Assembly: GCF_034059295.1 (NCBI RefSeq)
Contig: NZ_CP139141.1
Coordinates: 598,501 to 662,500 of the forward strand
Direction: 5' to 3'
DNA length: 64,000 bases
Source of the DNA: Pseudomonas sp. HR96
GTDB taxonomy: Bacteria; Pseudomonadota; Gammaproteobacteria; Pseudomonadales; Pseudomonadaceae
Part shown: piece after piece, positions 1 to 14,188 of the stretch
Numbering within the stretch: the stretch's first letter is position 1
How the letters are laid out: each line of letters opens with the position of its first letter
Notes under the pieces: generated by a model
Told to the model about the DNA's origin: nothing
The model's database searches: none
What the model saw: the letters and a program-made list of their open reading frames with translations, nothing else
Translations under genes and position numbers: made by a program

Positions 1-1964
1 AGGCGCTGGTAGAACGGCGCCTGGAGCAGCTGGGCCAGCAGGCGCCAGGCGGCCTCGTCGGCCAGATCGGCCGCAGGTGCCGGGCAGAACAGCAGCAGGG
101 CATGCTCGCTGGAAGGGGTTGGTACCTGCACCTGGCGCCATTGCGCCCAAGACGCCAGTGCCCGGGTCGCACTGGCGTCTGCGCGGCCCGGCAGTGCCTG
201 CAAGGCGGCGGCCAGCGCGGGTCGCTCGGCCTCGGCCAGGCCCAGCACCAGGCCGTCCCAGCGAGCGCCGGCCCAGGCGCTCGCCAGTGCTGCGGGTCCG
301 TCCTCGGACCGGCTGGCGCGGGCGCCGGAATCGACGTGCTCGGCGAGCAGCGCCAGCAATTGGCGAATGGGCACCAACACCGGCGGCGTACTGCCGGCCT
401 GCCAGGCGCTGGCCGGCGGTTGCCGCAGGGTGGTCACCGCGCTGGCGACCACGCTGGGCAGGGCCGCAGCTGCACCGCCGCACTCCAGGGTCCAGTCGCG
501 GCCATGGCAGTGCAGCCGCAGCTTCACCCCGGCCTGTTCGGCTTCGGCCTGCACACCGGCGAGGGCGCGTTGCAAGGTCGCGGTCACCTCCTCGGGGGCG
601 CGGGCCGCCAGACGCCAGCGCAGGCGCAGGCCGGCCAGCGGCCCCGGCGGACCGGCCTGCCAGGCCAGCGCCGACGGCCACGGCGGCACATGCCCGGGGC
701 TGCGTGTGCCGCGCAGAAAACGGTTGCGCGGTGGCAGGCGCCAGCTGCTGTTTAGCGGCTGGTCGGGCGCGGCGGCGACGGGATGCAGCAGGGCTTCCGG
801 GCGCAGTTGCGCGAGCAGTTCGCGCAAGGCCGGCAGGCCGTCGGCAGGGCCATCGTGCGCGTCGGGTTCGATCAGGCCGCGAGCCAGCTCCAGGGCTCCG
901 GCCACCTGCCGGCGCCGCTCGCGCAGCAGCGCAGACTCTTCTCGCAGCGTCGGCCAGTCGTCGTGGGCGGCGAAGGCTTGCAGCCAGTCGAAGACGCGCG
1001 CGGCGATCGCGCCTTCATCCTCGGCGCGGGTACCGCCCAGGGCGATGCTGAGCAGCAGCTGATCGGCGAAACGGTAGTGGGTCTTGAGTTGCAGCGACTG
1101 CGCCCAGCCGCGCTGACGCAGCTCGGCCAGCAGCCCGCCGTCGTGGCCGCTGGCGACCCAAGTGGCGAGAAACTCCAGTGCCCAGCCCATGCCTCGCGGC
1201 GATGCCTGGCAGGCGAACAGCAGATCCAGGCGGCTGGCGTCGGGGCGCGGCGCCCCGGCTTGGCGCAGCTCGCCGCGCAGGGGTGGCGCCGGCGCCTGCA
1301 CTTGGCCGGGGCCTGGCGGCAGGGCCGTGGTGGCCCGTTCGGCCAGGGCCTGCAAGTGCGCCAGCGGCTGCGGCCCGACCAGGCACAGGCTCATCTGCCC
1401 GGTCTGGTAGTGGCCCTGGTAGAACTCGCGCAGGGCCTGCTGGAACGCCGCGCTCGGCACCCGCAGGCTGTAGCGGTTGCCGGCGTGGAAGGCGCGCAAC
1501 GGGTGGGCCGGATTCAGCGGCTGGATCAGCCAGAGGTCGTGGCGCGCCTGGGCGTCGCGGCTCCAGGCGATGAACTCGGCGTGCAGCACCTCACGTTCGC
1601 GCAGCTGCTCGGCGGCGCCCAGGCGCGGGTGCGCGAGCATGTCGCAGAGCCGCTCAAGGCCGGCGGCGAAGGAGGCCGGGGGCAGCTCGAAGAAGAAGTC
1701 GGTGCAGCGCTCGCGGGTGCTGGCGTTGAGCTGGCCGCCGTTGCGCTGAACGAACGGCATCAGTGCTTCGTCGCCCGAGAATCGTTGCCCGCCGAGGAAA
1801 AAAAGGTGCTCGAGAAAGTGCGCCAGACCCGGCCAGGCGGCGGGTACATCGTGGCTGCCGGCATGCACCCGGAGAAAGGCGGCGGCTTGCTTGAGATGGG
1901 GGACGTGGTGCAGTTGCACCGGGAGGCCGTTGGCGAGAGTCAGCGAATGTTGCTGAGGGGGCAT
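1..1964 (-). CDS. pqqF: PqqF, M16-family zinc protease of PQQ biosynthesis (partial, 3' end outside window)
   Basis: The frame opens at an ATG at 1964 and stays open to the window edge, giving about 654 codons; the C-terminus lies outside. The protein starts MPPQQHSLTLANGLPV and carries the inverted zinc motif HFLEH at residues 49-53, diagnostic of M16 (insulinase/pitrilysin) peptidases. PqqF is thought to process the PqqA precursor peptide in pyrroloquinoline quinone synthesis. In pseudomonads it leads pqqFABCDE, which would lie to the left of this window. The start codon has only a weak ribosome binding site. The upstream neighbour is a sugar transferase in the same direction, so pqqF has only about 107 bp for its own promoter. 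Another M16 peptidase is formally possible, but the davBA neighbourhood supports PqqF. Confidence 0.85.
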   Translation of the reverse strand, partial: MPPQQHSLTLANGLPVQLHHVPHLKQAAAFLRVHAGSHDVPAAWPGLAHFLEHLFFLGGQRFSGDEALMPFVQRNGGQLNASTRERCTDFFFELPPASFAAGLERLCDMLAHPRLGAAEQLREREVLHAEFIAWSRDAQARHDLWLIQPLNPAHPLRAFHAGNRYSLRVPSAAFQQALREFYQGHYQTGQMSLCLVGPQPLAHLQALAERATTALPPGPGQVQAPAPPLRGELRQAGAPRPDASRLDLLFACQASPRGMGWALEFLATWVASGHDGGLLAELRQRGWAQSLQLKTHYRFADQLLLSIALGGTRAEDEGAIAARVFDWLQAFAAHDDWPTLREESALLRERRRQVAGALELARGLIEPDAHDGPADGLPALRELLAQLRPEALLHPVAAAPDQPLNSSWRLPPRNRFLRGTRSPGHVPPWPSALAWQAGPPGPLAGLRLRWRLAARAPEEVTATLQRALAGVQAEAEQAGVKLRLHCHGRDWTLECGGAAAALPSVVASAVTTLRQPPASAWQAGSTPPVLVPIRQLLALLAEHVDSGARASRSEDGPAALASAWAGARWDGLVLGLAEAERPALAAALQALPGRADASATRALASWAQWRQVQVPTPSSEHALLLFCPAPAADLADEAAWRLLAQLLQAPFYQR

Positions 1965-2022
1965 GAGCTTGCGTCGCCAGTGAGAAGTGTCGAAACCGGC
2001 CTGCGGCCTGTCGGGGCGTTGT

Positions 2023-2047
2023 CCCTCCCACATTGGACGTGGGAGGG
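2023..2047 (-). terminator. Terminator-like hairpin after the sugar transferase gene
   Basis: A perfect 9-bp inverted repeat (CCCTCCCAC / GTGGGAGGG) with a 7-nt loop lies about 25 bp past the stop of the transferase and before pqqF. It has no clear U-tract, so it could be a weak terminator, a processing site or a REP-like remnant. Confidence 0.4.
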
Positions 2048-2071
2048 GCAAGCGGTTTCGACGATTCTAGA

Positions 2072-3481
2072 TCAGTACGCGTTCTTGTTCACAAAGCCTT
2101 TGAACAGGGTCAGGAAAATGATCTTGATGTCCATCCACACCGACCAGTGCTCGATGTACTCGAGGTCGAACTCGATGCGTTTCTGCATCTTGTCCAGGGT
2201 GTCGGTTTCGCCGCGCCAGCCGTTGACCTGAGCCCAGCCGGTGATGCCTGGCTTGACCTTGTGGCGCAGCATGTAACCGTTCACCTGGGTGCGATACTGC
2301 TCGTTGTGAGCCACCGCGTGCGGGCGCGGGCCGACGATGGACATGTCGCCCTTGAGCACGTTGAAGAACTGCGGCAGCTCGTCCAGCGAGGTCTTGCGCA
2401 GGATCGCGCCCAGCGGGGTGATGCGCGAGTCGCCGCGGCTGGCCTGGGTCACGGTGGCGCCGTTTTCCTGCACGCTCATGCTGCGGAATTTCCACACCAT
2501 GATCGGCCGGCCGTCGAGGCCATAGCGCGTCTGGCGGAACAGCACCGGGCCCTTGGAGGTGAACTTGATCGCTGCGGCGATGACCAGCAGCGGGATGGCG
2601 ATGATGGCCAGGATCATGCTCGACACCACGATGTCTTCCAGGCGCTTGATCAACGCGCTGGAGCCGTCCATGGGGCTGTCGACCAGGCTGATGCTGGTCA
2701 GGCCGTTGATGGTTTCGGCGCGAGCGTGCAGCAGGTCGAACATGAACACGTCAGGAATCAGGTACACCGACACCGTGGTGTCGCTCAGGCCGCGAACCAG
2801 TTCGAGAATGGCCGGCTCATGGCTCATCGACAGGGTGATGTAGACCTTGTCCAGGCGCCCGGCACGGGCATCGACCACCAGGCGGGCGAGACCGCCGATC
2901 ACCGGCACGCGCGACTCGAGGTCCGACTGGTCCATCGGCTGTGGGTGATCGTCGTAGAAGCCCATCAGGTGCAGGCCCATCCACGGGGCTTCGGAAATCG
3001 ACTGCGCCAGGCGCTCGCCGACTTGACCGGTGCCGACGATGGCCACGTTGCGGGTGTTGAAGCCGCGCCGACGCATGGTCTGCAGCACGCTGCGAAACAC
3101 CACGCGGTACAGGCACAGCACCACCAGCACGGAGACGAACCAGGTGAGTTTCTCCTGGTTGGGCGGGGTGTTGGGGTGCAGCAGCAGGTAATCGACCAGC
3201 ATCACCACGACGAAGGTCACGGCCCAGTAGTTGAACACCCGCAGCAGTTCGCGCTGTACGCGCTCGCCCCGCCAGGAGTGATACATCTTGTTGTACTCGG
3301 CCAGCCAGTGAAAGATCACCACGGCCAGCACCACCAGGGTGGCGGTGTCGCTGCCCAGGGTGCCGCCCAGCCAGTTGGCCCACCAGCTGCAAAGGACGAT
3401 GACGGCCATGTCGAGCAGGCGGTGCGCGACCGCCAGCACGGAATGGTGGGCGTTTAAAATACCCTTTGGTTTTGTGGACAT
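2072..3481 (-). CDS. Undecaprenyl-phosphate sugar-1-phosphate transferase (WcaJ/WbaP type)
   Basis: This is a 469-residue polyprenyl glycosylphosphotransferase. The N-terminal half has several membrane segments and a CoA-binding-like region around residues 145-260 (VAIVGTGQVGERLA). The C-terminal catalytic domain has the family hallmarks WKFRSM, SLDELPQFFNVLKGDMS and VGPRPH, and ends in GITGWAQVNGWRGET. The family moves a sugar-1-phosphate, usually glucose or galactose, from UDP-sugar to undecaprenyl phosphate at the inner membrane, the first step of exopolysaccharide assembly. The length is normal for WcaJ. The ATG at 3481 is preceded by GGGAG. It is the last gene of a four-gene exopolysaccharide module. 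No other glycosyltransferase, flippase or polymerase is nearby, so the rest of the pathway must be elsewhere or missing. The donor sugar cannot be told from sequence. Confidence 0.9.
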   Translation of the reverse strand: MSTKPKGILNAHHSVLAVAHRLLDMAVIVLCSWWANWLGGTLGSDTATLVVLAVVIFHWLAEYNKMYHSWRGERVQRELLRVFNYWAVTFVVVMLVDYLLLHPNTPPNQEKLTWFVSVLVVLCLYRVVFRSVLQTMRRRGFNTRNVAIVGTGQVGERLAQSISEAPWMGLHLMGFYDDHPQPMDQSDLESRVPVIGGLARLVVDARAGRLDKVYITLSMSHEPAILELVRGLSDTTVSVYLIPDVFMFDLLHARAETINGLTSISLVDSPMDGSSALIKRLEDIVVSSMILAIIAIPLLVIAAAIKFTSKGPVLFRQTRYGLDGRPIMVWKFRSMSVQENGATVTQASRGDSRITPLGAILRKTSLDELPQFFNVLKGDMSIVGPRPHAVAHNEQYRTQVNGYMLRHKVKPGITGWAQVNGWRGETDTLDKMQKRIEFDLEYIEHWSVWMDIKIIFLTLFKGFVNKNAY

Positions 3482-3623
3482 GGCATCTCCCTGCGGCCTG
3501 AGGCTCAGCGAAAAAGTGAGAAAGTACGAAAATCCTTTACGATTTGTTGCGGATCGCGCGTTCGGCTGACGCTAGGACCACAGAAACCCCTGGAACGATC
3601 CCTAGGAGTGGCAGAAAGCTATT

Positions 3624-3641
3624 AAATATCTCTAGATATTT
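3624..3641. promoter_or_regulatory. AT-rich palindrome upstream of the sugar transferase
   Basis: A perfect 7-bp inverted repeat AAATATC-TCTA-GATATTT lies in an unusually AT-rich patch of the 247-bp gap between the antiterminator gene and the transferase. It could be an operator or a promoter region giving the transferase its own transcript. No clear -35/-10 pair was found. Confidence 0.3.
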
Positions 3642-3691
3642 CTACGCCATGTGTATTTCACTGAGGTTGCCCTGAAGACGTTATCGCCCGA

Positions 3692-3718
3692 CGAACAACC
3701 GGCTTGAGCGGTTGTTCG
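3692..3718 (-). terminator. Terminator-like hairpin after the RfaH-like gene
   Basis: A perfect 10-bp stem (CGAACAACCG / CGGTTGTTCG) with a 7-nt loop begins about 10 nt after the stop of the RfaH-like gene. It lacks a U-tract. It is one of three strong hairpins at gene ends in this module. Confidence 0.45.
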
Positions 3719-3728
3719 GGCTGCGGCC

Positions 3729-4247
3729 TCAGAATGCGGCGAGTTGCGGCAGGCGCGACAAGGCGCTGCGCGGCATGACCACCCGCTGCTCGCGCTGCAA
3801 CAGGTTGAGCAGGATGACGGCACGCTCTTCACCGTCCTCGCAGAGGAAGATCGCCTGCACTTCGCTGTCGCCGGTGCGCACCAGCACGTGCTCGCCCTGG
3901 ACGAACCGCAGGTCGGGAGGCGCCGGTTGCGCCAGGCGCTGGCGGATCTGTTCGATCAGGGCGTCCTGCACCGGGCATGGCTGGCCGCCGAATGCCACGA
4001 CACGGCACACGCCGCGGGTCGAGCGGATCGGGTACCAGCTGTGTTCCTCGTCCATGCGAATGAACAGGTAGCCGGGAAACAACTCCTCCTCGTGCAGCCG
4101 TCGGTTCCTGCCTGCATCCAGGGGCGCCGAGCGCAACGGGCGGAAGCATTCGAACTGCTGGCGCTCGAGATGCTCCTGCGCGCGGGCTTCCTGGCGCGGC
4201 TTGGTCTGGATCAAATACCAATTGGCGTTACTGGCGAAGTCGTTCAT
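3729..4247 (-). CDS. RfaH-like transcription antitermination factor
   Basis: This 172-residue protein belongs to the NusG/RfaH family. The N-terminal NGN domain reads WYLIQTKPRQEARAQEHLER and continues to ELFPGYLFIRMD and STRGVCRVV. A C-terminal KOW-type domain has QAIFLCEDGEERAVILLNL, which matches E. coli RfaH (QAIF..PDGE.R..LLLNL) better than NusG. RfaH is recruited by an ops element in the non-template strand of paused RNA polymerase and suppresses Rho-dependent and intrinsic termination in long polysaccharide operons. A perfect ops core lies in the leader of this same module (6701-6711), so local autocontrol is likely. The ATG at 4247 is chosen because NGN proteins start just before the WY motif; a TTG two codons upstream is possible. 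The ribosome binding site is weak. Confidence 0.88.
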   Translation of the reverse strand: MNDFASNANWYLIQTKPRQEARAQEHLERQQFECFRPLRSAPLDAGRNRRLHEEELFPGYLFIRMDEEHSWYPIRSTRGVCRVVAFGGQPCPVQDALIEQIRQRLAQPAPPDLRFVQGEHVLVRTGDSEVQAIFLCEDGEERAVILLNLLQREQRVVMPRSALSRLPQLAAF

Positions 4248-4297
4248 GGGCAAGTCTCGACGTGAGTAGTTGGCACGCTGATCAACGGCACGGCGCT

Positions 4298-4322
4298 GTC
4301 AGGCGCGCTTGCGCGGCCTGAC
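4298..4322 (-). terminator. Terminator-like hairpin between the kinase-like gene and the RfaH-like gene
   Basis: The stem GTCAGGC/GCCTGAC continues into GCGC/GCGC with one bulged G and a two-base loop. It sits in the 156-bp gap downstream of the kinase-like gene. No U-tract is visible, so its activity is uncertain. Confidence 0.4.
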
Positions 4323-4403
4323 GGGGTGGAGCGGTAAAACCGCATCGATGCGGATCTGACGATCATGGCTGTGGTCCTTCAAGCCTCTTTCATGGCCGGT
4401 ACT

Positions 4404-6083
4404 TCACTTGCGTTGCGGTGTGGCCGAATAACCGTAGGTGTCGGCGACGTGGGCGGTGCGCGCAACCTGCTGCAGCACTTCGCCGTTGAACACCGCGCCA
4501 CGTACCGGCACGCCTTCATGGGCCAGGCGCTGGCGACAGGCGTCGATTTCGCTCAACGAATACTTGTTCATGCGCGCCACCAGCAGCACGCTGCCGACCT
4601 GACGCCCGAGCAGCCTGGCGTCCGGGCCGACGCTCAGTGCCGGGGCATCGATGAGGATCACGTCATAGTGAGGCGCCCAGCTGTGCAGCAGGCCCTCGAT
4701 GGAGCCGGCCGAGAACAGCGCGGCGGAGTTGGCGGTCTTGCGGCCGCGGGCGACCAGGTCCAGGCCGGCGATGCCGGTGTAGTGCACCAGGTCGCGGGCG
4801 TCGGCGCGGGCGGCCAGCACGTCGGACAGGCCGCAGGTCGGCTTGACCATCAGCTCTTCGTGCAGGCGCCCGCTGCGCAGGTTGGCGTCGACCAGCAGCA
4901 CGCGCTGGCCGCCCTGGGCCAGCACCACCGCCAAGTTGCTGGTGATGAACGAGGTACCCGCGTCCGGGGTCATGCCGCACAGCAGCACGGCCTTGTCGGG
5001 GGCGCCCAGCAGGGTCATGTACAGGCTGGTGCGCAGGCTGCGCAGGGCTTCGACGGCGAGGTCGTCCCGCGCCACCTGGCACAGCAGCGGGCTGCGCGCA
5101 CCCAGGCGTTTCTGGCGCTGCGACCAGGGCAGCGAGGCCAGCACCGGCAGGCCGATGCCTTCGATGGCATCCGGACCCTTCGCGCTGACCGCAAGGACCT
5201 TGTAGCGGATGACCACCGCCAGACTCAGCAACAGGCCGAACAGCGCGCACAGGCCGATGATCAGATCGCTGCGCGGGTAGGCGGGGTGATAGGTGTCGGT
5301 GGTGGCGCTGTCGATGACCTTGGCGCCGCCGGCGTCCAGGCGGCTGATGCCGTCGAGCACGCGGGTGGCCACGTCTGGCCGGGTGTCCTGCAGCGCTACA
5401 TAGATCAGCCCGGAACCCGGTGGCCCCTTGCTCACCTGCATGCGCTCGATGTATTCCAGTGCGTAGCTTTGCGGACGTTTGCGCGCGGTGTACAGCAGCG
5501 TGCCCGGGCGCGCCACCAGTTTGCGGATCAGAATGGTGACGTCATTGGCCTGGGCGATCTGGCCGACCTGACCGGCCAGCAGCAGCACTCGCTGCGGGGC
5601 ATAGAGGGTGTAATGGCCGTTGTCGCCGGCCACCAGGGTCAGGGTTTGCCCCATCAGGCCGATCGGCACGTCCAGCTGCTGGATGTCCAGCACCTCACCG
5701 CCCCAGCCATAGGTGGCCATGCCCAGCAGCGGCGCGGCCAGGGGCTGCGCCGGGGTTGGTTGGAAATGGCGGGCGAAGAAGTTGCCGATCAGCGTCAGGT
5801 GCGCCACGGTGTAGTCGACGTCAAGGTTCTGCGCCTGCAGCACCTTGCCCACGGCATCGGGCGATTGCATCAGGGCGATCTGCGCGGCGACCTGGCCGGC
5901 GAGGCTGTTGCCGGGGGTCTGCGTAACCTGCACCAGTGCACGGGCTTCATAGATGGGTTGCGCCAGCTGCGTGTAACCCCAGCCCAACGCGGCGAACACG
6001 CCCGTGCCGAGGATCACCAGAAACTTGTTCGCCAGTACCACGCGCACGCCGTGCATCAGCTGGGCCAGAGTCGGGCGGTTCAT
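4404..6083 (-). CDS. Wzz/BY-kinase-like polysaccharide co-polymerase with degenerate kinase motifs
   Basis: The 559-residue protein has the layout of a fused Wzc-type co-polymerase: a transmembrane segment near residues 17-38, a periplasmic Wzz-like region, a second transmembrane segment near 275-297, and a cytoplasmic P-loop domain from about 365. Family members control chain length and export of exopolysaccharide, and cycle between phosphorylated and unphosphorylated states. Here Walker A reads GMTPDAGTSF (370-379), with Thr377 (ACC) where the catalytic Lys should be. Walker A' is DANLR (399-403), with Asn401 in place of the second Asp. Walker B is ILIDAP (476-481) instead of D[ST]P. The C-terminal tail has only two tyrosines (YGY). 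I therefore infer a pseudokinase or ATP-independent co-polymerase. The ATG overlaps the upstream phosphatase stop by 4 bp (ATGA), indicating translational coupling. Confidence 0.85.
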   Translation of the reverse strand: MNRPTLAQLMHGVRVVLANKFLVILGTGVFAALGWGYTQLAQPIYEARALVQVTQTPGNSLAGQVAAQIALMQSPDAVGKVLQAQNLDVDYTVAHLTLIGNFFARHFQPTPAQPLAAPLLGMATYGWGGEVLDIQQLDVPIGLMGQTLTLVAGDNGHYTLYAPQRVLLLAGQVGQIAQANDVTILIRKLVARPGTLLYTARKRPQSYALEYIERMQVSKGPPGSGLIYVALQDTRPDVATRVLDGISRLDAGGAKVIDSATTDTYHPAYPRSDLIIGLCALFGLLLSLAVVIRYKVLAVSAKGPDAIEGIGLPVLASLPWSQRQKRLGARSPLLCQVARDDLAVEALRSLRTSLYMTLLGAPDKAVLLCGMTPDAGTSFITSNLAVVLAQGGQRVLLVDANLRSGRLHEELMVKPTCGLSDVLAARADARDLVHYTGIAGLDLVARGRKTANSAALFSAGSIEGLLHSWAPHYDVILIDAPALSVGPDARLLGRQVGSVLLVARMNKYSLSEIDACRQRLAHEGVPVRGAVFNGEVLQQVARTAHVADTYGYSATPQRK

Positions 6084-6547
6084 GCGTGGGCACTCCGCTG
6101 GCTGGCGAGGGCGCCCAAGTGCGGCAGCCAGTCTTCGACGCAGCGCGAGAGGCTGTTGTAGGTGTCGACGAAGGCGCCTTTGGGGCGGCGGAAGGGGTCG
6201 CCGATTTCCATGTCGTCGCGCCAGTGGCCGATCAAGGCTACCTTGCCGCGGATTTCCGGGGCCAGCTTGATCACGCTGCGCAGATGGTTGTGTTCCATGA
6301 CCAGCACCAGGTCTGCCCAGTGCAGTTGTTGCAGGGTCACCTGGCTGGCGCGATGCTCGTAACCGGTGACCTGGAAATCGTCCAGCACTTCCTGGGCGGT
6401 CGGCTCGATGCCATAGCCCACGCAGGCCTGCAGGCCGCAGGAATCGATATGTACACCTGGCGCCGTGCAGCGCTCGCGCAGCATGGCGACGGCCATCGGG
6501 CTGCGGCAGATGTTGCCGACGCAGACGATCAAGACTCGGCTGAACAT
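6080..6547 (-). CDS. Low-molecular-weight protein tyrosine phosphatase (Wzb type)
   Basis: This is a 155-residue cytoplasmic LMW-PTP. The catalytic P-loop CVGNICRS gives nucleophile Cys9 and Arg15, and the general-acid loop GDPF lies near residue 117. In exopolysaccharide loci these enzymes dephosphorylate the tyrosine-rich tail of the BY-kinase. Here the active site looks intact although the neighbouring kinase is degenerate and has few tail tyrosines, so the real substrate may be another protein. It is the first long gene of the module, and its stop overlaps the next start. A short open frame (6549-6611) ends one base before its ATG. Confidence 0.9.
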   Translation of the reverse strand: MFSRVLIVCVGNICRSPMAVAMLRERCTAPGVHIDSCGLQACVGYGIEPTAQEVLDDFQVTGYEHRASQVTLQQLHWADLVLVMEHNHLRSVIKLAPEIRGKVALIGHWRDDMEIGDPFRRPKGAFVDTYNSLSRCVEDWLPHLGALASQRSAHA

Positions 6548-6548
6548 A

Positions 6549-6611
6549 TCAGCGACGCCCTCGCGCTCGGGCGAACAGGGGCGTCAAGTAGCAATCGAAC
6601 AACTGTGACAT
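6549..6611 (-). CDS. Possible 20-residue leader peptide upstream of the phosphatase gene
   Basis: ATG at 6611 opens a 20-codon frame (MSQLFDCYLTPLFARARGRR) ending in TGA at 6549, one base before the phosphatase ATG. An AGGA lies 9 nt upstream. The tight spacing suggests possible translational coupling, and the frame lies just downstream of ops. In RfaH systems the factor can also help recruit ribosomes, so a coupled small frame is plausible. There is no homology evidence, and it may be chance. Confidence 0.3.
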   Translation of the reverse strand: MSQLFDCYLTPLFARARGRR

Positions 6612-6700
6612 GGCAACAAATCCTGGTATCTAAGGGAACTGCTAGCACTGGCGCGCTGAGTGGCTGTCCTGGCCATGACCGATTCACAAACTGTTGGGCA

Positions 6701-6711
6701 AAGCTACCGCC
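6701..6711 (-). promoter_or_regulatory. ops element (RfaH recruitment site)
   Basis: On the minus strand the sequence is GGCGGTAGCTT, an exact match to the ops core GGCGGTAGNNT. It lies about 150 nt upstream of the first gene of a polysaccharide module that itself encodes an RfaH-like protein, in the correct orientation. An 8-base core can occur by chance, but this position, strand and context make function likely. The wider JUMPStart sequence is not obviously present. Confidence 0.75.
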
Positions 6712-6975
6712 GGTTCCGCTAGGGTGTGCACACAAGTCAGTGCCAACCGTTCGCGGCAGATGGATCATCGCATCACTCCATGACAGCACTGCGCGTTTTG
6801 GCCCAGACCTTTGTCCGGAGAAACGCCAATGAGTTCAGCCAACACACAGCCAAACGCGTCTTGCGCAGGCAAAACGGCAGGCGGGTGATTGGCAGGTCGC
6901 GTTATTGGTCTTTTTATGAGTGCGCGGCAGGGCACGCAGGAGGCACCACTGCACCGATATTCAAGCCGGAATGGA

Positions 6976-7006
6976 GATATATCGGCTCTCACGCTAACGC
7001 TGTCAA
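6976..7006 (-). promoter_or_regulatory. Possible sigma-70 promoter of the exopolysaccharide module
   Basis: A perfect -35 TTGACA (7006-7001) is followed by TATATC (6981-6976) at 19 bp, or by GATATA at 17 bp. AT-rich sequence lies upstream. A start here would place ops about 260 nt into the transcript. The -10 is imperfect. Confidence 0.4.
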
Positions 7007-7249
7007 ATACTTTCGACAGAATAAATCAAATTATGCCAACTGAGTAGTGAATACGCAGTTAACCTATTGATTTGGCTGATAGATGAAAACTTGGCGGATA
7101 AATACGGCTGTTTTTTTGACGCGCAGGAGCGGGCATTGTCCGTCCGGGACATGGCCGGCCCCGAATTCGTTGGGCGGTTCCGCTGTTCGGGAAAGTTCCG
7201 GCCGGCTGATAATAAATTTTCAGCGAGTTCGAGTTGGAAAGTTGTCGTC

Positions 7250-7272
7250 AAAAAACCGGAGGATTAACCGGT
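7250..7272 (-). terminator. Intrinsic terminator downstream of davBA
   Basis: On the minus strand a 5-bp stem ACCGG/CCGGT with an 8-nt loop is followed directly by six T, 53 nt after the davA stop. Confidence 0.5.
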
Positions 7273-7324
7273 CGTCAAGTTTAGTTAGCAAGCTTTCATT
7301 TAATGTCTACTTCCGCGGCCAGGT

Positions 7325-8107
7325 TCAATAGAGCTCCTGGCGGCGATCCAGCAAGTAGTCATTGAAGCGCCTGGCCATGCCCAGCGCGCGCGAGTCGAGT
7401 GTGGCGATCAACAATTGCTCGGCGTCACCCGCCAAGCCCGGCAGGTCACCCAACGGGCCGGCCACGCTGCTCAAGCCGCAGTACTCGATGCCATCTTCCT
7501 GGCCGCAATAGTTGGCATAGGCCACATAGCAGTGGTTTTCAAAGGCGCGGCTGCGCACCGTGACCTCGGCGACGAAGCCGAACGGCAGCATGTTGGCAGT
7601 GGGCACGATAATCGCCTGGGCCCCGGTCAGGGCCAGGCGGCGGCAGTTTTCGGGGAACTCCAGGTCGTAGCAGATCAACACGCCGAGTTTCCAGCCATCG
7701 AGTTCAACTACAGGAAAGTCGTCGCCACCGGCGCTGAACAAGCCGCGGTCCAGTTCGCCGAACAGGTGGGTCTTGCGGTAGTTGAGCCGCGCCTGGCCGT
7801 CACGGTCGAGCAGCTGCGCCGAGTTGTATACCCGGCCATCGGCACCGCGTTCCGGGTAGCCATACAACAAGGCGATGCCATGCTCGCGGGCAATCGCGGC
7901 GGCCTGCTGCATGGATGGGCCATCGGCGGCCTCCGCCAGCTCGGTCACCGCCGCCGCGCCGATGTTGTAGCCGGTCAGAAACATCTCCGGGCACACCAGC
8001 AGCCCGGCGCCGGCGGCGCTGGCCAGGGCGGCCTGTTGCTGCAGCCGGCGCAGGTTGGCAGGCTTGTCCAGCGGCAGGGGTGGGCATTGGTACAGGGCGA
8101 TCTGCAT
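7325..8107 (-). CDS. davA: 5-aminovaleramidase, carbon-nitrogen hydrolase family
   Basis: This 260-residue nitrilase-superfamily amidase has the catalytic triad in its usual contexts: Glu in CPEMFLTGYN, Lys in YRKTHLFGELDR and Cys in GVLICYDLEFPE. DavA hydrolyses 5-aminovaleramide to 5-aminovalerate and ammonia, the second step of the lysine monooxygenase pathway. The start at 8107 (MQIALYQCPP) is chosen because it has GGAGG five bases upstream and matches family N-termini; the frame extends further upstream without support. It lies 20 bp after davB, so the two form an operon. Without the davB neighbour I would only call it a nitrilase-family amidase. Confidence 0.88.
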   Translation of the reverse strand: MQIALYQCPPLPLDKPANLRRLQQQAALASAAGAGLLVCPEMFLTGYNIGAAAVTELAEAADGPSMQQAAAIAREHGIALLYGYPERGADGRVYNSAQLLDRDGQARLNYRKTHLFGELDRGLFSAGGDDFPVVELDGWKLGVLICYDLEFPENCRRLALTGAQAIIVPTANMLPFGFVAEVTVRSRAFENHCYVAYANYCGQEDGIEYCGLSSVAGPLGDLPGLAGDAEQLLIATLDSRALGMARRFNDYLLDRRQELY

Positions 8108-8127
8108 GGCAGCCTCCGTGGGTGGTT

Positions 8128-9810
8128 TCAGTCCGACAGGGCGATCGGGCCGATTTCGTCGAACACGTCCCCGGGTCCGGGGTTGTCCGGGTGGGTGTGG
8201 CCCCCGAAGTGGGTCATGATGCCCCATACCGCGTTGAGCGAGGTCTGCACGGCGCCTTCGACCCAGGCGGGGGTCCAGGACACGTCGTCACCGGCGATGA
8301 AGATGCCGCGTTGCTCGGCGGGCATGTCGGCCTGCATGAAGTGCGCGTACATGCGCTGGTTGTAACGGTAATGGCCGGGCAGGGCGCCCTTGAAGGCGCC
8401 GAGGAAGTGCGGGTCGGCCTCCCAGGAAACCGTGATCGGGTCGCCGATGATGTGGCCGGCGATGTCGACCCGGGGGTAGATCTTCTTCAGCGCGTCGAGG
8501 GCCAGCTTGACACGTTTTTCGACCGGGTGCGGGAGCATCTTCAGGGCGTCGCTCATCCACGAGTAGGACAGGCAGATCACCCCCGGCTGGTCATCGCCGT
8601 GGTCGAACAGATAGGTGCCCCGGGTCAGGCGGTCGGTGAGGGTCATGCTCATCAGGTCGCGGCCGGTCTCGGGGTCCTTGTCTTTCCAGAACGGCCGGTC
8701 GACCATCACGAAGGTCTTGGAAGCCTGCATGTAGCGGGTGCGGTCCAGGGCCATCCACAGCTTTTGCGAGAACAGCGATTCCTCGCACTCGATCTGCGTG
8801 GTCAGCAGCCAGCTCTGGCAAGTGGTCAGCACCGCCGCGTAGTGGCGGGTGTCGCCCCAATTGTCGGTGACCGCCAGGCGGCCGTCCGCCGCCCGGGCGA
8901 TGGCCTTGACCCCGGAGCGCGGGGCGCCATGGTGCAACGAGCTCAGGCTGGTGCCCTGCGGCCAGTGCGCGCATCGCTGCGGCACGTGTCGCCAGATACC
9001 TTGCGGCACCTGCTCGACGCCCCCGACGATGAGGTGCTGGTGGTCGTCGCAGTTGGTCATCACCACGCGAAAGATTTCCAGCATCGAGTTGGGGAAATCC
9101 GAGTCCCAGCCGCCGGTGCCGAAGCCGACCTGGCCAAACACCTCGCGGTGCTGGAACGACAGGCTGGCGAAGGCCTTGGACGTGGCGACGAAGTCATAGA
9201 AGGTACGGTCGTCCCACAGCGGCACCAGGGTGTTCCACAGCTCCTTGAGCCGCGGCACGTCGCGGTCGCGGATGGCCTGCTGGATCTCGCCGAAGCGCGA
9301 GCCGGTCTCCAGGGCGTCTGCCCAGGCATCGGCGACTTCCTGAAACAGCTTTGGCAGGTCACTCAGCCGCTCGGCATAGTGGGTGTCGCCCTCCAGGTCG
9401 ATCACCGTGCTGCCCGATGCCGCCGTCAGTGGGTTGGGAAACGGGCGGGTCTCCAGGCCGAGCTTGTCGACGTAGTGGTAGAACGCCGTCGACGACACTG
9501 GAAAGCGCATGCCGCCCAGCTCGGCGACGATGCCGTTGGTGCCTTCGAAGGTCTGTGAGCGCAAACGCCCGCCCATCTTCGAGGCTTCATAGAGCACCGG
9601 CTTGAGGCCCAGCTTCATCAGTTCATAGGCCGCCACCAGCCCGGCGATGCCGGCCCCGACGATCGCCACCTCCTCGCCATGGCGCTCACTGGGAATGCTG
9701 CCCAGGCCGGCCGGGTGCTCGATCCACTGGTCGAAAGCGAACGGAAAGTCCGGGCCGAACACGGTCACAGGGGCTTTGCCGTCGGCGGGGTGGCGGTTGG
9801 GACTGGTCAT
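8128..9810 (-). CDS. davB: L-lysine 2-monooxygenase (flavin amine oxidase family)
   Basis: This is a 560-residue FAD enzyme. The dinucleotide-binding motif VAIVGAGIAGL is at residues 48-58, followed by LYEASKMGGRLRS and the C-terminal FAD-contact region GIFIAGDDVSWTPAWVEGAVQTSLNAV. Lysine 2-monooxygenase converts L-lysine and oxygen to 5-aminovaleramide, carbon dioxide and water. Tryptophan 2-monooxygenase is a close relative, and older annotations use that name. Pairing with an aminovaleramidase-like gene 20 bp downstream favours the lysine enzyme, and I recall this order as davB-davA in P. putida. An Lrp-type gene lies upstream in the same direction. Confidence 0.88.
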   Translation of the reverse strand: MTSPNRHPADGKAPVTVFGPDFPFAFDQWIEHPAGLGSIPSERHGEEVAIVGAGIAGLVAAYELMKLGLKPVLYEASKMGGRLRSQTFEGTNGIVAELGGMRFPVSSTAFYHYVDKLGLETRPFPNPLTAASGSTVIDLEGDTHYAERLSDLPKLFQEVADAWADALETGSRFGEIQQAIRDRDVPRLKELWNTLVPLWDDRTFYDFVATSKAFASLSFQHREVFGQVGFGTGGWDSDFPNSMLEIFRVVMTNCDDHQHLIVGGVEQVPQGIWRHVPQRCAHWPQGTSLSSLHHGAPRSGVKAIARAADGRLAVTDNWGDTRHYAAVLTTCQSWLLTTQIECEESLFSQKLWMALDRTRYMQASKTFVMVDRPFWKDKDPETGRDLMSMTLTDRLTRGTYLFDHGDDQPGVICLSYSWMSDALKMLPHPVEKRVKLALDALKKIYPRVDIAGHIIGDPITVSWEADPHFLGAFKGALPGHYRYNQRMYAHFMQADMPAEQRGIFIAGDDVSWTPAWVEGAVQTSLNAVWGIMTHFGGHTHPDNPGPGDVFDEIGPIALSD

Positions 9811-10514: not shown

Positions 10515-10536
10515 AAAAAACCCGCCGAAGCGGGTT
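10515..10536 (-). terminator. Strong intrinsic terminator
   Basis: Stem AACCCGC/GCGGGTT with a TTCG loop on the minus strand, followed by TTTTTT. It would end transcripts coming from the DUF3077 gene and may work weakly in the plus direction. Confidence 0.75.
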
Positions 10537-10752
10537 CTTTGTGTGCCATCCAACGTCCTGTCGGCAGCGTCCTTGCAATGGCCAGTCATCCCTGACTCTG
10601 ACGCGATCCGTCGCTTCAGCTGATGGGGCTAGATTACTGCTGGGGCGTGAATGGCAATAGAGGAGATTGCAGGCACGGCGTGTAAGACATTCGCTATGGT
10701 TGAGACCAACGTGTCTTGCGGCCTCCACGTTCGTTCCGCAGCTACGCCGCAA

Positions 10753-11081: not shown

Positions 11082-11353
11082 GGTGAAGATCCTCAAGGGG
11101 GATTCATCACACCGCCGATCATTAGTGAAGGCGGCGCGGTTGCGCCGTATCTTTCAGGCCGCCAAGCCTGGGTCACTGAATTTGCAGCGACGGGCGGAGG
11201 TTAGCGTGAATCCCGACTCATCTCAATCCATAGGCCCAAGCAGTCGAATAGGGATGAGCGGAGCTGTTGTGGCATCGCCAAATTGACGATAGCTTCAGAG
11301 ACGTCTACCCCGCTCGGCTTTGGGATAAAGGCAGAGCTGCCGAGGAAATGGAA

Positions 11354-12573: not shown

Positions 12574-13842
12574 TTACGAGTTGAGACGAGCCACGTTCTC
12601 ACTTATTTGGCGCGCGATGTCGCCAAGCGTGTGTGCCGAGATTTGTTCGGGGAGCATGTCACGGGCCAGCGCGGAAAACCCTGCGGACACTTCGCAGATT
12701 CTGTCGATCACTTGCGCAACTTGCTGTGAAGACAGTTCTGTCTCTTGTTCCCCAAGGCGGCACAGATCCTTGCGCGTCACTTCCAATGCTTCGCCCATGA
12801 TGTCCATTTGGTGATAGCCGCCTGGCCCGTCGCAATAGGTAACGTCGTAGGCCGGTGCCAGGGTCCACGCACCCGCTTTGTTCATGACGTAGGCGAAATT
12901 CTTTGGGTGATCGTCTCTATTGTTGAAGACGATATTGAATACCGCTCGCTCAAAGGCCACAGCCTGCTGGCGAACATCATTGGTGCATAACCGGGTCGCG
13001 CGCAGGAAATTGGAGTAGTCCAATGATCCAGGATTCTGGAAGTCTGCGCCGGTAAATGCCGCGAGGCTCTGCATAGGCACCCGCAAGCCGTCTTTGCGGT
13101 CGAAGCGTTTCGTCGCGAACGCTGCCTGTCCGTCCGCCAGTCTGAAGTATTGGCAGTCGGGAGTCTGGATGCCGCACCTTCGAAGGCATTCTGCATAGAC
13201 TGTTTCAATCGCGCAGACCTCGGGGTGTTCTTGCCTGGCAGGAAACTTGACCAACCATGCGTCCAGGTCTGGGCGAGCCTGAGTGCTGAACACTCCAGTG
13301 CTGGCATCGCCATAGAGCAAGGCCTTGGGCCTGGCCCCTTGCGGCGAGCCGCCGACCTGCAGGAGTCGCTGCAGAAAGGGCCCGCCCTCGCCATTGAGTA
13401 CTTCGCGAACATCGCTGGCGAGTTGCTGCAGCGCAATGTCATCGTTCGAAATCAATGGATCTTCCGCTACCGGTTCGAACGACATTGCGCCCATCGCGTT
13501 GTTTCCGATATAGGCAAGGCGCTCAAGTGGTCCAATGCGAGCCGGATTCAGGCCGCGTCGCTTGAACAGGCGGTCCATCAACAGCATGCCCCAGCCGTCC
13601 GGAAGCGAGTCGTACACGGGGCCCGGTAGCGCAAGTTGGTGAGCGGGAAAATCCCTGCGCAGGCTTGGCCCTTGGAGCGGCAACGTGTAAGAGCAAAGCT
13701 CCAAGCCTTGAGCTTTGGCTTCGTCGCTGTACTCGAAAGCTATCAACGGCCGCCCATTCAATGCGGTAGTGGTGACCAGTGATCCCCATCGCCAATGCTC
13801 ACCCCAACCATCGTAGTAAACGTCGACTTGTCTAGGCATCAT
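12574..13842 (-). CDS. hipA: HipA-type serine/threonine kinase toxin
   Basis: This is a 422-residue HipA-like protein. It has an N-terminal HipA_N-type region, the conserved LPDGWGMLLMDR stretch, GGSPQGARPKALL, WLVKFP, FATKRFDR and the catalytic/Mg signature FNNRDDHPKNFAYV. HipA kinases phosphorylate translation factors such as glutamyl-tRNA synthetase and cause growth arrest or persistence. The start is the ATG at 13842 (or the adjacent ATG at 13839); it overlaps the end of the HTH antitoxin gene by about 11 bp, the usual hipBA arrangement. In E. coli HipA the DNA-bound complex represses its own promoter; an operator-like repeat precedes the pair here. The target is unknown. Confidence 0.85.
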   Translation of the reverse strand: MMPRQVDVYYDGWGEHWRWGSLVTTTALNGRPLIAFEYSDEAKAQGLELCSYTLPLQGPSLRRDFPAHQLALPGPVYDSLPDGWGMLLMDRLFKRRGLNPARIGPLERLAYIGNNAMGAMSFEPVAEDPLISNDDIALQQLASDVREVLNGEGGPFLQRLLQVGGSPQGARPKALLYGDASTGVFSTQARPDLDAWLVKFPARQEHPEVCAIETVYAECLRRCGIQTPDCQYFRLADGQAAFATKRFDRKDGLRVPMQSLAAFTGADFQNPGSLDYSNFLRATRLCTNDVRQQAVAFERAVFNIVFNNRDDHPKNFAYVMNKAGAWTLAPAYDVTYCDGPGGYHQMDIMGEALEVTRKDLCRLGEQETELSSQQVAQVIDRICEVSAGFSALARDMLPEQISAHTLGDIARQISENVARLNS

Positions 13843-14143
13843 TGCGCTTCCTGATCCGTAGACGTTGCGAGCTGCCTTCATAGCGCAGGATGTCGTCGAG
13901 GCTTTCCAGTCTGGGCTGGAACAATTGTTCCAGATCCTGATGGCGGCCAAGCACCATAGCTACCCTGACCACGCTCTCGAAGGCCACATTGCGACCGGCC
14001 TCCAGATTGGAAACCGTGTTCACGCCCACGCCAGCCCGGGCGGCGACGTCTGCTTGAGTCCTGTGCTGGGCCAGGCGCTCCTTGCGAAGACGCTCGCATA
14101 CCAGCTTGACTATTTCATCGGGACGGCTGAGGTTTAATTCCAT
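13832..14143 (-). CDS. hipB: HipB-like antitoxin, XRE-family regulator
   Basis: A 103-residue protein with a Cro/C1 helix-turn-helix (RKERLAQHRTQADVAARAGV then GVNTVSNLEAG). It is encoded directly upstream of and overlaps hipA. It should bind and neutralise the kinase and repress the operon. The ATG at 14143 is preferred because the candidate -10 box lies at 14183-14188; an upstream GTG at 14182 would leave no leader. The ribosome binding site is weak. Confidence 0.85.
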   Translation of the reverse strand: MELNLSRPDEIVKLVCERLRKERLAQHRTQADVAARAGVGVNTVSNLEAGRNVAFESVVRVAMVLGRHQDLEQLFQPRLESLDDILRYEGSSQRLRIRKRNDA

Positions 14144-14151
14144 GATAATGG

Positions 14152-14188
14152 GGCTTATCCAAGAATTTTCCAGATAAGCCACATTATA
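14152..14188 (-). promoter_or_regulatory. hipBA promoter with operator-like inverted repeat
   Basis: A perfect 8-bp inverted repeat GGCTTATC-N13-GATAAGCC (14152-14180) lies directly downstream of a perfect -10 box TATAAT (14188-14183, minus strand). E. coli HipB sites are TATC-N10-GATA, so this resembles them with a longer spacer. The -35 is poor. Confidence 0.55.

Follow-up and report, generated by a model that had tools for sequence, protein, structure and literature searches.

What does an antiterminator do when its gene lies inside the very operon that it would switch on? The window, i.e. the whole stretch of 64,000 nt analysed here (G000:C1:598501-662500, Pseudomonas sp. HR96), carries a four-gene unit which encodes an RfaH protein and has an ops element in its leader. 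An earlier note on this DNA had called the unit a self-contained exopolysaccharide module under positive feedback. From the sequence comparisons below we judge it rather likely that the unit is a reduced ops/RfaH module, derived from an operon with a resident RfaH and now acting in cis and in trans on a scattered pathway. The main pairwise comparison for the module was made with the locus L013 of Pseudomonas sp. dw_358, and genome-wide motif counts refer to the 5.87-Mb genome.

Behind the ops element, family searches bore out a minus-strand unit of four genes, which encode a low molecular weight protein tyrosine phosphatase (PTP), a Wzc-like protein, RfaH and WcaJ. The features are listed in the direction of transcription.

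6693..6711, minus strand: ops element GGCGGTAGCTT (6701-6711), extended to GGCGGTAGCTTTGCCCAAC; the same or similar extended sites stand in full-operon leaders
6548..6720, minus strand: presumed transcribed leader from ops to the first gene; blocks conserved with L013 in the alignment
6549..6611, minus strand: 20-codon open reading frame (ORF) directly before the PTP start; short matches; open in L013 too (22 codons)
6080..6547, minus strand: low molecular weight PTP, Wzb-like; PF01451
4404..6083, minus strand: Wzc-like co-polymerase, 559 aa; PF23607/PF02706; lacks about 165 residues ahead of the kinase part, GTS, shortened tyrosine tail
3729..4247, minus strand: RfaH antiterminator, 172 aa; PF02357; TIGR01955, 168 bits (cut-off 144.5); RfaH in the PDB
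3690..3725, minus strand: hairpin right after the rfaH stop, without a T run; fold of 3660-3740 at -31.4 kcal/mol, z -2.6; not listed as a terminator
3658..3709, minus strand: 3' end remnant of a deleted group-1 glycosyltransferase (GT1) that is whole in L013; blastn of the window against L013
2072..3481, minus strand: WcaJ-type undecaprenyl-phosphate glucose phosphotransferase; PF13727/PF02397; TIGR03023, 570 bits; the only PF02397 gene of the genome

The third gene had been read as encoding an RfaH-like antiterminator, and its product does exceed the cut-off of the RfaH family model TIGR01955. The best start is the ATG at 4247. The product scored below the cut-offs of PRK09014 (115.7; cut-off 124), the UpxY model NF033644 (56.3; 100), the LoaP model NF033641 (37.9; 125) and the housekeeping NusG model TIGR00922 (45; 135.7). 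The residues with which E. coli RfaH contacts ops, K10, H20, R23, Q24 and R73 (roles as described in PMC7593976 and PMC5995543), align with K16, H26, R29, Q30 and R78. All five are invariant in an alignment of 46 sequences; in a second one of 100 sequences four show no variation, and H26 is kept in at least 90%. The E. coli autoinhibition residues E48, I93, F130 and R138 correspond to E54, I98, F134 and R142, where F134 and R142 are invariant in both alignments and I98 is kept in at least 90%; E54 reaches at least 90% in alignment A2 and not in A1, and L017 has Q there. A fold search of the PDB with the first AlphaFold2 model gave active RfaH on the ops-paused polymerase as top match. A paralogue search found three NusG-domain genes in the genome, i.e. 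the module rfaH, a stronger match at C1:672486 and one at C3:8458. The last (L011, G000:C3:8458-8745) lies on a 59-kb contig, scores 41.6 bits and is perhaps a plasmid's own antiterminator.

The perfect ops core GGCGGTAGCTT was confirmed at 6701-6711 on the minus strand, just over 150 nt upstream of the PTP gene. The looser pattern GGCGGTAGNNT occurs once in the window, as the module ops (chance expectation 0.34), and no further match was found in the window that could be a second, proximal ops of the leader. By itself the motif is weak evidence. The module ops was judged real because of its context: a block conserved with L013, a rare 19-mer, and ops elements in homologous leaders. The block GCGGTAGCTTTGCCCAACA is unchanged between the aligned leaders of the window and L013, while the preceding base, the first of the L013 ops, differs from that of the window; upstream of GCGGTAGCTTTGCCCAACA the leaders diverge strongly, and conserved blocks are also found in the roughly 100 nt after it. 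The 19-mer GGCGGTAGCTTTGCCCAAC has one exact match in the genome, and with up to three mismatches there are 3 matches against 2 for the reversed control.

Many equally placed ops matches ahead of genes unrelated to polysaccharides had been named as a reason to give the idea up. Of the 43 genome matches of the loose GGCGGTAGNNT, 7 precede a same-strand gene by at most 400 nt. Two of these seven genes belong to polysaccharide loci, namely the module and a manC gene; one of the other five matches lies inside a small ORF missed by the gene caller. GGCGGTAGCTT has six genome matches, two of them in same-strand leaders, and both leaders again belong to the module and manC. These two sites are also the only ones among the six which continue with TG to GGCGGTAGCTTTG. 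The sequence GGCGGTAGCGTTGCC at C1:501228, identical to the ops of some relatives, was set aside since it lies inside a small lipoprotein-like ORF. The conserved bases GCGGTAGC contain the E. coli ops hairpin element. In E. coli, as described in PMC5995543, the polymerase pauses at ops, and the non-template strand of ops folds into a hairpin that has a C3:G8 pair and in which RfaH reads G5 and T6. The presumed link between ops and RfaH is well supported. Scans found no terminator in the module leader or in the gap between rfaH and wcaJ, and no Rfam family is listed within the module at the gathering threshold.

The relatives show where such a unit may come from. The genus was sampled by an even draw of 298 genomes; the 29 loci ranking next below that of the window were taken, and weaker matches (most at 40-50% identity) left out. 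Full operons begin with an unlabelled first gene, followed by a DegT aminotransferase, a flippase (PF01943), a GT2 glycosyltransferase, PTP, Wzc, WbqC and RfaH. After RfaH come GT2, GT1, an unlabelled membrane-type protein, a weak GH39 match, GT1, an acyltransferase, GT1, WcaJ and Wza. The content varies, the GH39 match is below cut-off, and the membrane-type protein is a polymerase by place only. The order wzc-(wbqC)-rfaH-gt2-gt1 was seen in all 29 genus loci. Leaders were compared for 27 loci, i.e. the seven homologous full-operon loci of the first homologue set (L013 apart) and 20 from among the 29 of the genus. Several come from close strains (L014/L015; L018-L020), so that the number of independent events is below 27. 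An ops element stands in 7 of 7 and 19 of 20 leaders, respectively, L213 being the one without, so that the arrangement of an RfaH gene inside an ops-led operon is conserved (26 of 27 leaders).

Most of these leaders carry ops twice: two elements were found in 21, one in 5 and none in 1. The pairs (among L194-L212, L016 and L018-L020) are spaced by 56-119 nt. For L206, L208 and L210, whose first gene was not recognised, the distance from ops to the operon is counted from the degT match. The distal element continues with CTTTG or CATTG in 17 of the 21 leaders (the CTTTG type in 14), and the proximal one with CGTG in 17. Over both strands of the 20 genus stretches (297,274 bases) GCGGTAGC has 44 matches, of which 36 are on the right strand and no more than 600 nt ahead of the first recognised gene. 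In the open-access literature, whose coverage makes this a weak negative, we found no report of ops in Pseudomonas exopolysaccharide operons or of natural paired ops; the sole mention of "tandem ops" found refers to a template used in vitro that combines ops with his pause signals.

By gene order and by its remnants, the module is a deletion derivative of a 16-17-gene exopolysaccharide operon with a resident RfaH. This follows because iaaM and a nitrilase gene adjoin both the full operon (L014-L017) and the module, because the kept genes are collinear, and because the GT1 tail persists between rfaH and wcaJ. Against L013, blastn aligned 270 columns (E 3e-37) spanning the GT1 tail and the wcaJ leader; the gap between rfaH and wcaJ measures 248 nt. 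L018-L020 have neither of the two neighbours. The other flank is pqqF in the window and in L013, and lies beyond the fetched stretches of L014-L017. The 20-codon ORF is probably a deletion scar in which the start of the lost first gene was joined to the end of the lost GT2. Absent from the module are the flippase, the exporter and the later glycosyltransferases. Here the description as self-contained fails, since most sugar-making genes of the parent operon are gone and the module alone cannot make polysaccharide; furthermore, its control probably also reaches manC and a distant 11-kb operon.

What was kept is under purifying selection. Ratios of non-synonymous to synonymous substitution (dN/dS, NG86) between window and L013 are 0.13 for PTP, 0.30 for Wzc, 0.19 for RfaH and 0.07 for WcaJ, at dS of 0.80, 0.90, 0.87 and 0.35, respectively. 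Ratios well below 1 at such dS indicate that the four reading frames are maintained. As a side observation, the NG86 dS of wcaJ (0.35) is below the 0.80-1.04 of its neighbours, owing to recombination, constraint or method; the low value is seen with NG86 only, YN00 giving 1.48 for wcaJ and 2.00 for rfaH. The Wzc of both window and L013 lacks about 165 residues and has Walker-A GKS changed to GTS; that of the window is below the cut-off of PF13807, the GNVR region (20.1; cut-off 27.7), and has two tyrosines in its shortened tail. Among the best 120 of 325 matches, six proteins are of this short kind (the window's and five of 556-558 aa), all without the Walker-A lysine (GTS, GTT or GAS) and with identities down to 52%. 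Because it recurs in five others at this distance, the short lysine-less Wzc is an old form that has been maintained, and no fresh lesion. Kinase activity of the module Wzc is unlikely.

If the module makes no sugar itself, its partners have to be sought elsewhere. The pathway would be spread over four loci, i.e. the module, a solitary manC with ops, the 11-kb operon with an ops variant, and a wzx-like and GT2 pair without ops. The manC gene (C1:4014350-4015846, 498 aa, PF00483/PF01050) has GGCGGTAGCTTTGTC 189 nt upstream. GGCGGTAGCATTGYC stands before manC in the genome of L013, in P. baltica and in a sister of the latter. The manC leaders of window and L013 are alike throughout, and therefore a site shared by that pair proves little alone; in P. 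baltica and its sister the site stands in quite unlike leaders. The 11-kb operon (C1:5458193-5469047) encodes an acyltransferase, a barrel-like protein (recognised by eye), Wza, a full Wzc (GKS), GT1, gmd, an epimerase, a 426-aa membrane-type protein (without Pfam match; polymerase by place only) and GT2. It contains the one PF02563 gene of the genome and no PF01943 gene. The 15-mer TGCGGTAGCCATGCC is found 261 nt upstream of its first gene, with TGCGGTAGCTATG at the corresponding position of the alignment in the genome of L013. In the full-operon leaders of L195 and L196, TGCGGTAGCCATGCC recurs as the second ops, where the similar locus L194 has GGCGGTAGCTTTGCC. A pattern covering these sites, GCGGTAGCNNTG, has 40 matches in the genome, 31 in called genes, 5 before a same-strand gene and 4 otherwise placed; three of the five leader matches are the module, manC and the 11-kb operon, and one lies in a missed small ORF.

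The only PF01943 match of the genome is below cut-off (26.9 against 28.2 bits). The PF01943-like, i.e. wzx-like, gene and its adjacent GT2, at about C1:2385000, have 62% and 61% identity to P. baltica genes. These homologues stand inside the corresponding cluster, adjoining the single PF02397 gene of that genome. The full Wzc of the 11-kb operon was compared in 10 genomes, matching at 92% in the genome of L013, at 51% in P. baltica and its sister, and at only 27-29% in the other seven.

The initiator of the pathway is distributed accordingly. WcaJ passes TIGR03023 (570; cut-off 410.75) and PF02397 (234; cut-off 27), is 96% conserved, and is encoded by the one PF02397 gene that a genome search found. 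The genome of L013 also has a single PF02397 gene, in its counterpart module. In P. baltica the single PF02397 gene sits in the cluster related to the 11-kb operon; the ops operon of that genome lacks wcaJ and any other PF02397 gene over the 20.5 kb examined. Initiator and cluster are therefore complementary, the ops module holding the initiator where the cluster has none, and the reverse in P. baltica; either kind is represented by two lineages. The distant operon contains a gap of 458 nt, and a search there for a PF02397 remnant gave no significant match.

On the E. coli mechanism, RNA polymerase would pause at the leader ops, where RfaH would be recruited, exclude NusG and Rho, and carry the polymerase through wzb, wzc, rfaH and wcaJ. 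RfaH would thus raise its own supply. The positive feedback postulated earlier is built into the anatomy, as RfaH is encoded within a unit that has ops in its leader; since rfaH follows ops, a rise in RfaH should in turn raise the rfaH message. Bistability of such a loop would depend on cooperativity and on basal read-through. The module would make no sugar itself and would supply WcaJ, the phosphatase and RfaH to the scattered pathway. We infer that RfaH binds ops, that its action is in cis and most likely also in trans, and that the distant operon uses WcaJ, which would couple initiation and GDP-mannose supply to the scattered pathway. A wider proposal, which we give slightly less than even odds, is that this lineage was caught with RfaH control moving from cis to trans. 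A resident, ops-reading RfaH would have retained the leader and the loop of its operon through the loss of the sugar-making genes. The ops sites at manC and at the 11-kb operon would then make the remnant a command module coupling initiation, precursor supply and assembly, the short lysine-less Wzc would persist as a part without kinase function, and paired ops would be in use in the parent operons.

Several observations weigh against our reading. Three of them, i.e. the counts of loose patterns, the manC orthologues and the AlphaFold2 models, also favour a purely cis loop, in which RfaH serves its own reduced operon only and the ops-like sites at manC and further away are chance or relics. 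The loose patterns are not enriched genome-wide, the reversed controls giving 64 matches against 43 for GGCGGTAGNNT and 92 against 40 for GCGGTAGCNNTG; the latter count is no blind test, since the pattern was written after the third site had been seen. Among manC orthologues of 12 other distinct genomes (above 74% identity; G042 and G299, with identical coordinates, counted once), three have the site, and nine have no GCGGTAG in 500 nt upstream; in five of these nine, only about 20 nt separate manC from the end of a preceding PF02397 gene. The leaders of the wzx-like pair (308 nt) and of the related P. baltica cluster (about 860 nt) contain no GGTAG. The distant operon has no PF02397 gene, where WecA-type initiators were not looked for, and it has its own full Wzc, so that the module Wzc may be dispensable. 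Finally, an RfaH would be expected to have an alpha-helical, fold-switching C-terminal domain, and both AlphaFold2 runs modelled this domain as beta (from 46 and 100 sequences, with mean pLDDT of 70 and 77); such models fit the class that a 2026 preprint (PMC13015549) describes as constitutive and cis-acting on the basis of such predictions. The members tested there, by its account, lack some of the ops-contact residues, every one of which is kept in the window RfaH. Four predictors including AlphaFold2 are reported to return beta nearly always for variants whose spectra are helical, with E. coli RfaH as an exception (PMC9247905), so that the window RfaH may or may not switch its fold. Set against the conserved manC site in the unlike leaders of P. 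baltica and its sister, and the recurrence of the distant 15-mer as a second ops in two other genomes, a purely cis loop is in our view unlikely.

The remaining alternatives concern the module itself. One of them takes only wcaJ as functional, driven by its own promoter in the 248-nt gap after rfaH, and regards RfaH and the other upstream genes as incidental. The gap bears a hairpin and wcaJ is far more conserved than its module neighbours, yet RfaH, PTP and ops are conserved too. A scan found no sigma-70-like promoter in the gap, a weak test as it found none upstream of ops either, and this second negative counts against our own reading. We regard this alternative as quite unlikely. Still less probable, with a slim chance at best, is a decaying remnant, i.e. 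an exopolysaccharide operon being lost whose open frames are leftovers without a present role. Such decay would account for the lost glycosyltransferases, flippase and exporter, for a Wzc without its Walker-A lysine and a large part, and for the dN/dS of Wzc and RfaH lying above that of WcaJ. It does not agree with four frames kept open in two lineages at the dS and dN/dS given above, with the recurrence of the short Wzc in five other proteins, or with the conserved ops block and a highly conserved wcaJ as the only PF02397 gene.

Resident antiterminators are of a known kind. The statement that classical rfaH is unlinked holds for E. coli and not in general: NusG paralogues are encoded in or beside the operon served for UpxY of Bacteroides, TaA and LoaP (described in PMC7593976, PMC7819879), and RfaH-type genes lie within putative exopolysaccharide operons in Shewanella RfaH cluster CL7 (PMC7593976) and as EPS273-M of P. 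stutzeri, proposed as activator of its own locus (PMC5532660). Compared with E. coli, the family (above cut-off), the ops core, the contact residues and the position of ops in surface-polysaccharide leaders are alike; unlike E. coli, rfaH lies here inside its target operon, the ops of relatives is mostly doubled and the predicted C-terminal domain is beta. UpxY, TaA and LoaP share the place in or beside the operon, whereas the window RfaH scores below the UpxY and LoaP cut-offs (no TaA model was compared) and has ops and probable trans targets. For CL7 and EPS273-M, which share the location in a putative exopolysaccharide operon, the descriptions seen report neither ops pairs nor a reduced module nor trans targets. 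With Wzx/Wzy-type capsule operons the unit shares the Wzb, Wzc and WcaJ protein families, but its Wzc is without the Walker-A lysine and some 165 residues, and the unit has no glycosyltransferase, Wzx, polymerase or Wza. Judged by the literature searched, four features seem to be new: the reduction of the module, its complementary initiator, its probable targets in trans and the paired ops of the parents.

Other features of the window are noted in passing. An rsmX small RNA (10515-10624, RF02144, 85.7 bits) is located some 4 kb away from the module; Pseudomonas exopolysaccharide is under the influence of the Rsm system. A match to a C4 antisense RNA target structure was found at 11151-11204 (RF03163, 56.1 bits), and a gene pair resembling HipA and its HTH partner (recognised by eye) at 12574-14182. 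At 7325-9810 an amine oxidase (PF01593) adjoins a carbon-nitrogen hydrolase (PF00795), which we take to resemble an indole-acetamide route arrangement. Phage records gave no match near 1500-9500.

Published schemes, as set out in PMC7593976 and PMC13015549, propose an RfaH that served its own operon at the outset and acquired ops reading, autoinhibition and distant targets afterwards. One regulator here combines operon residence, ops reading and probable distant targets, and its relatives show the parent form. The step from cis to trans thereby becomes testable through comparison of close species, and the paired ops of the parent operons would be a second testable feature.

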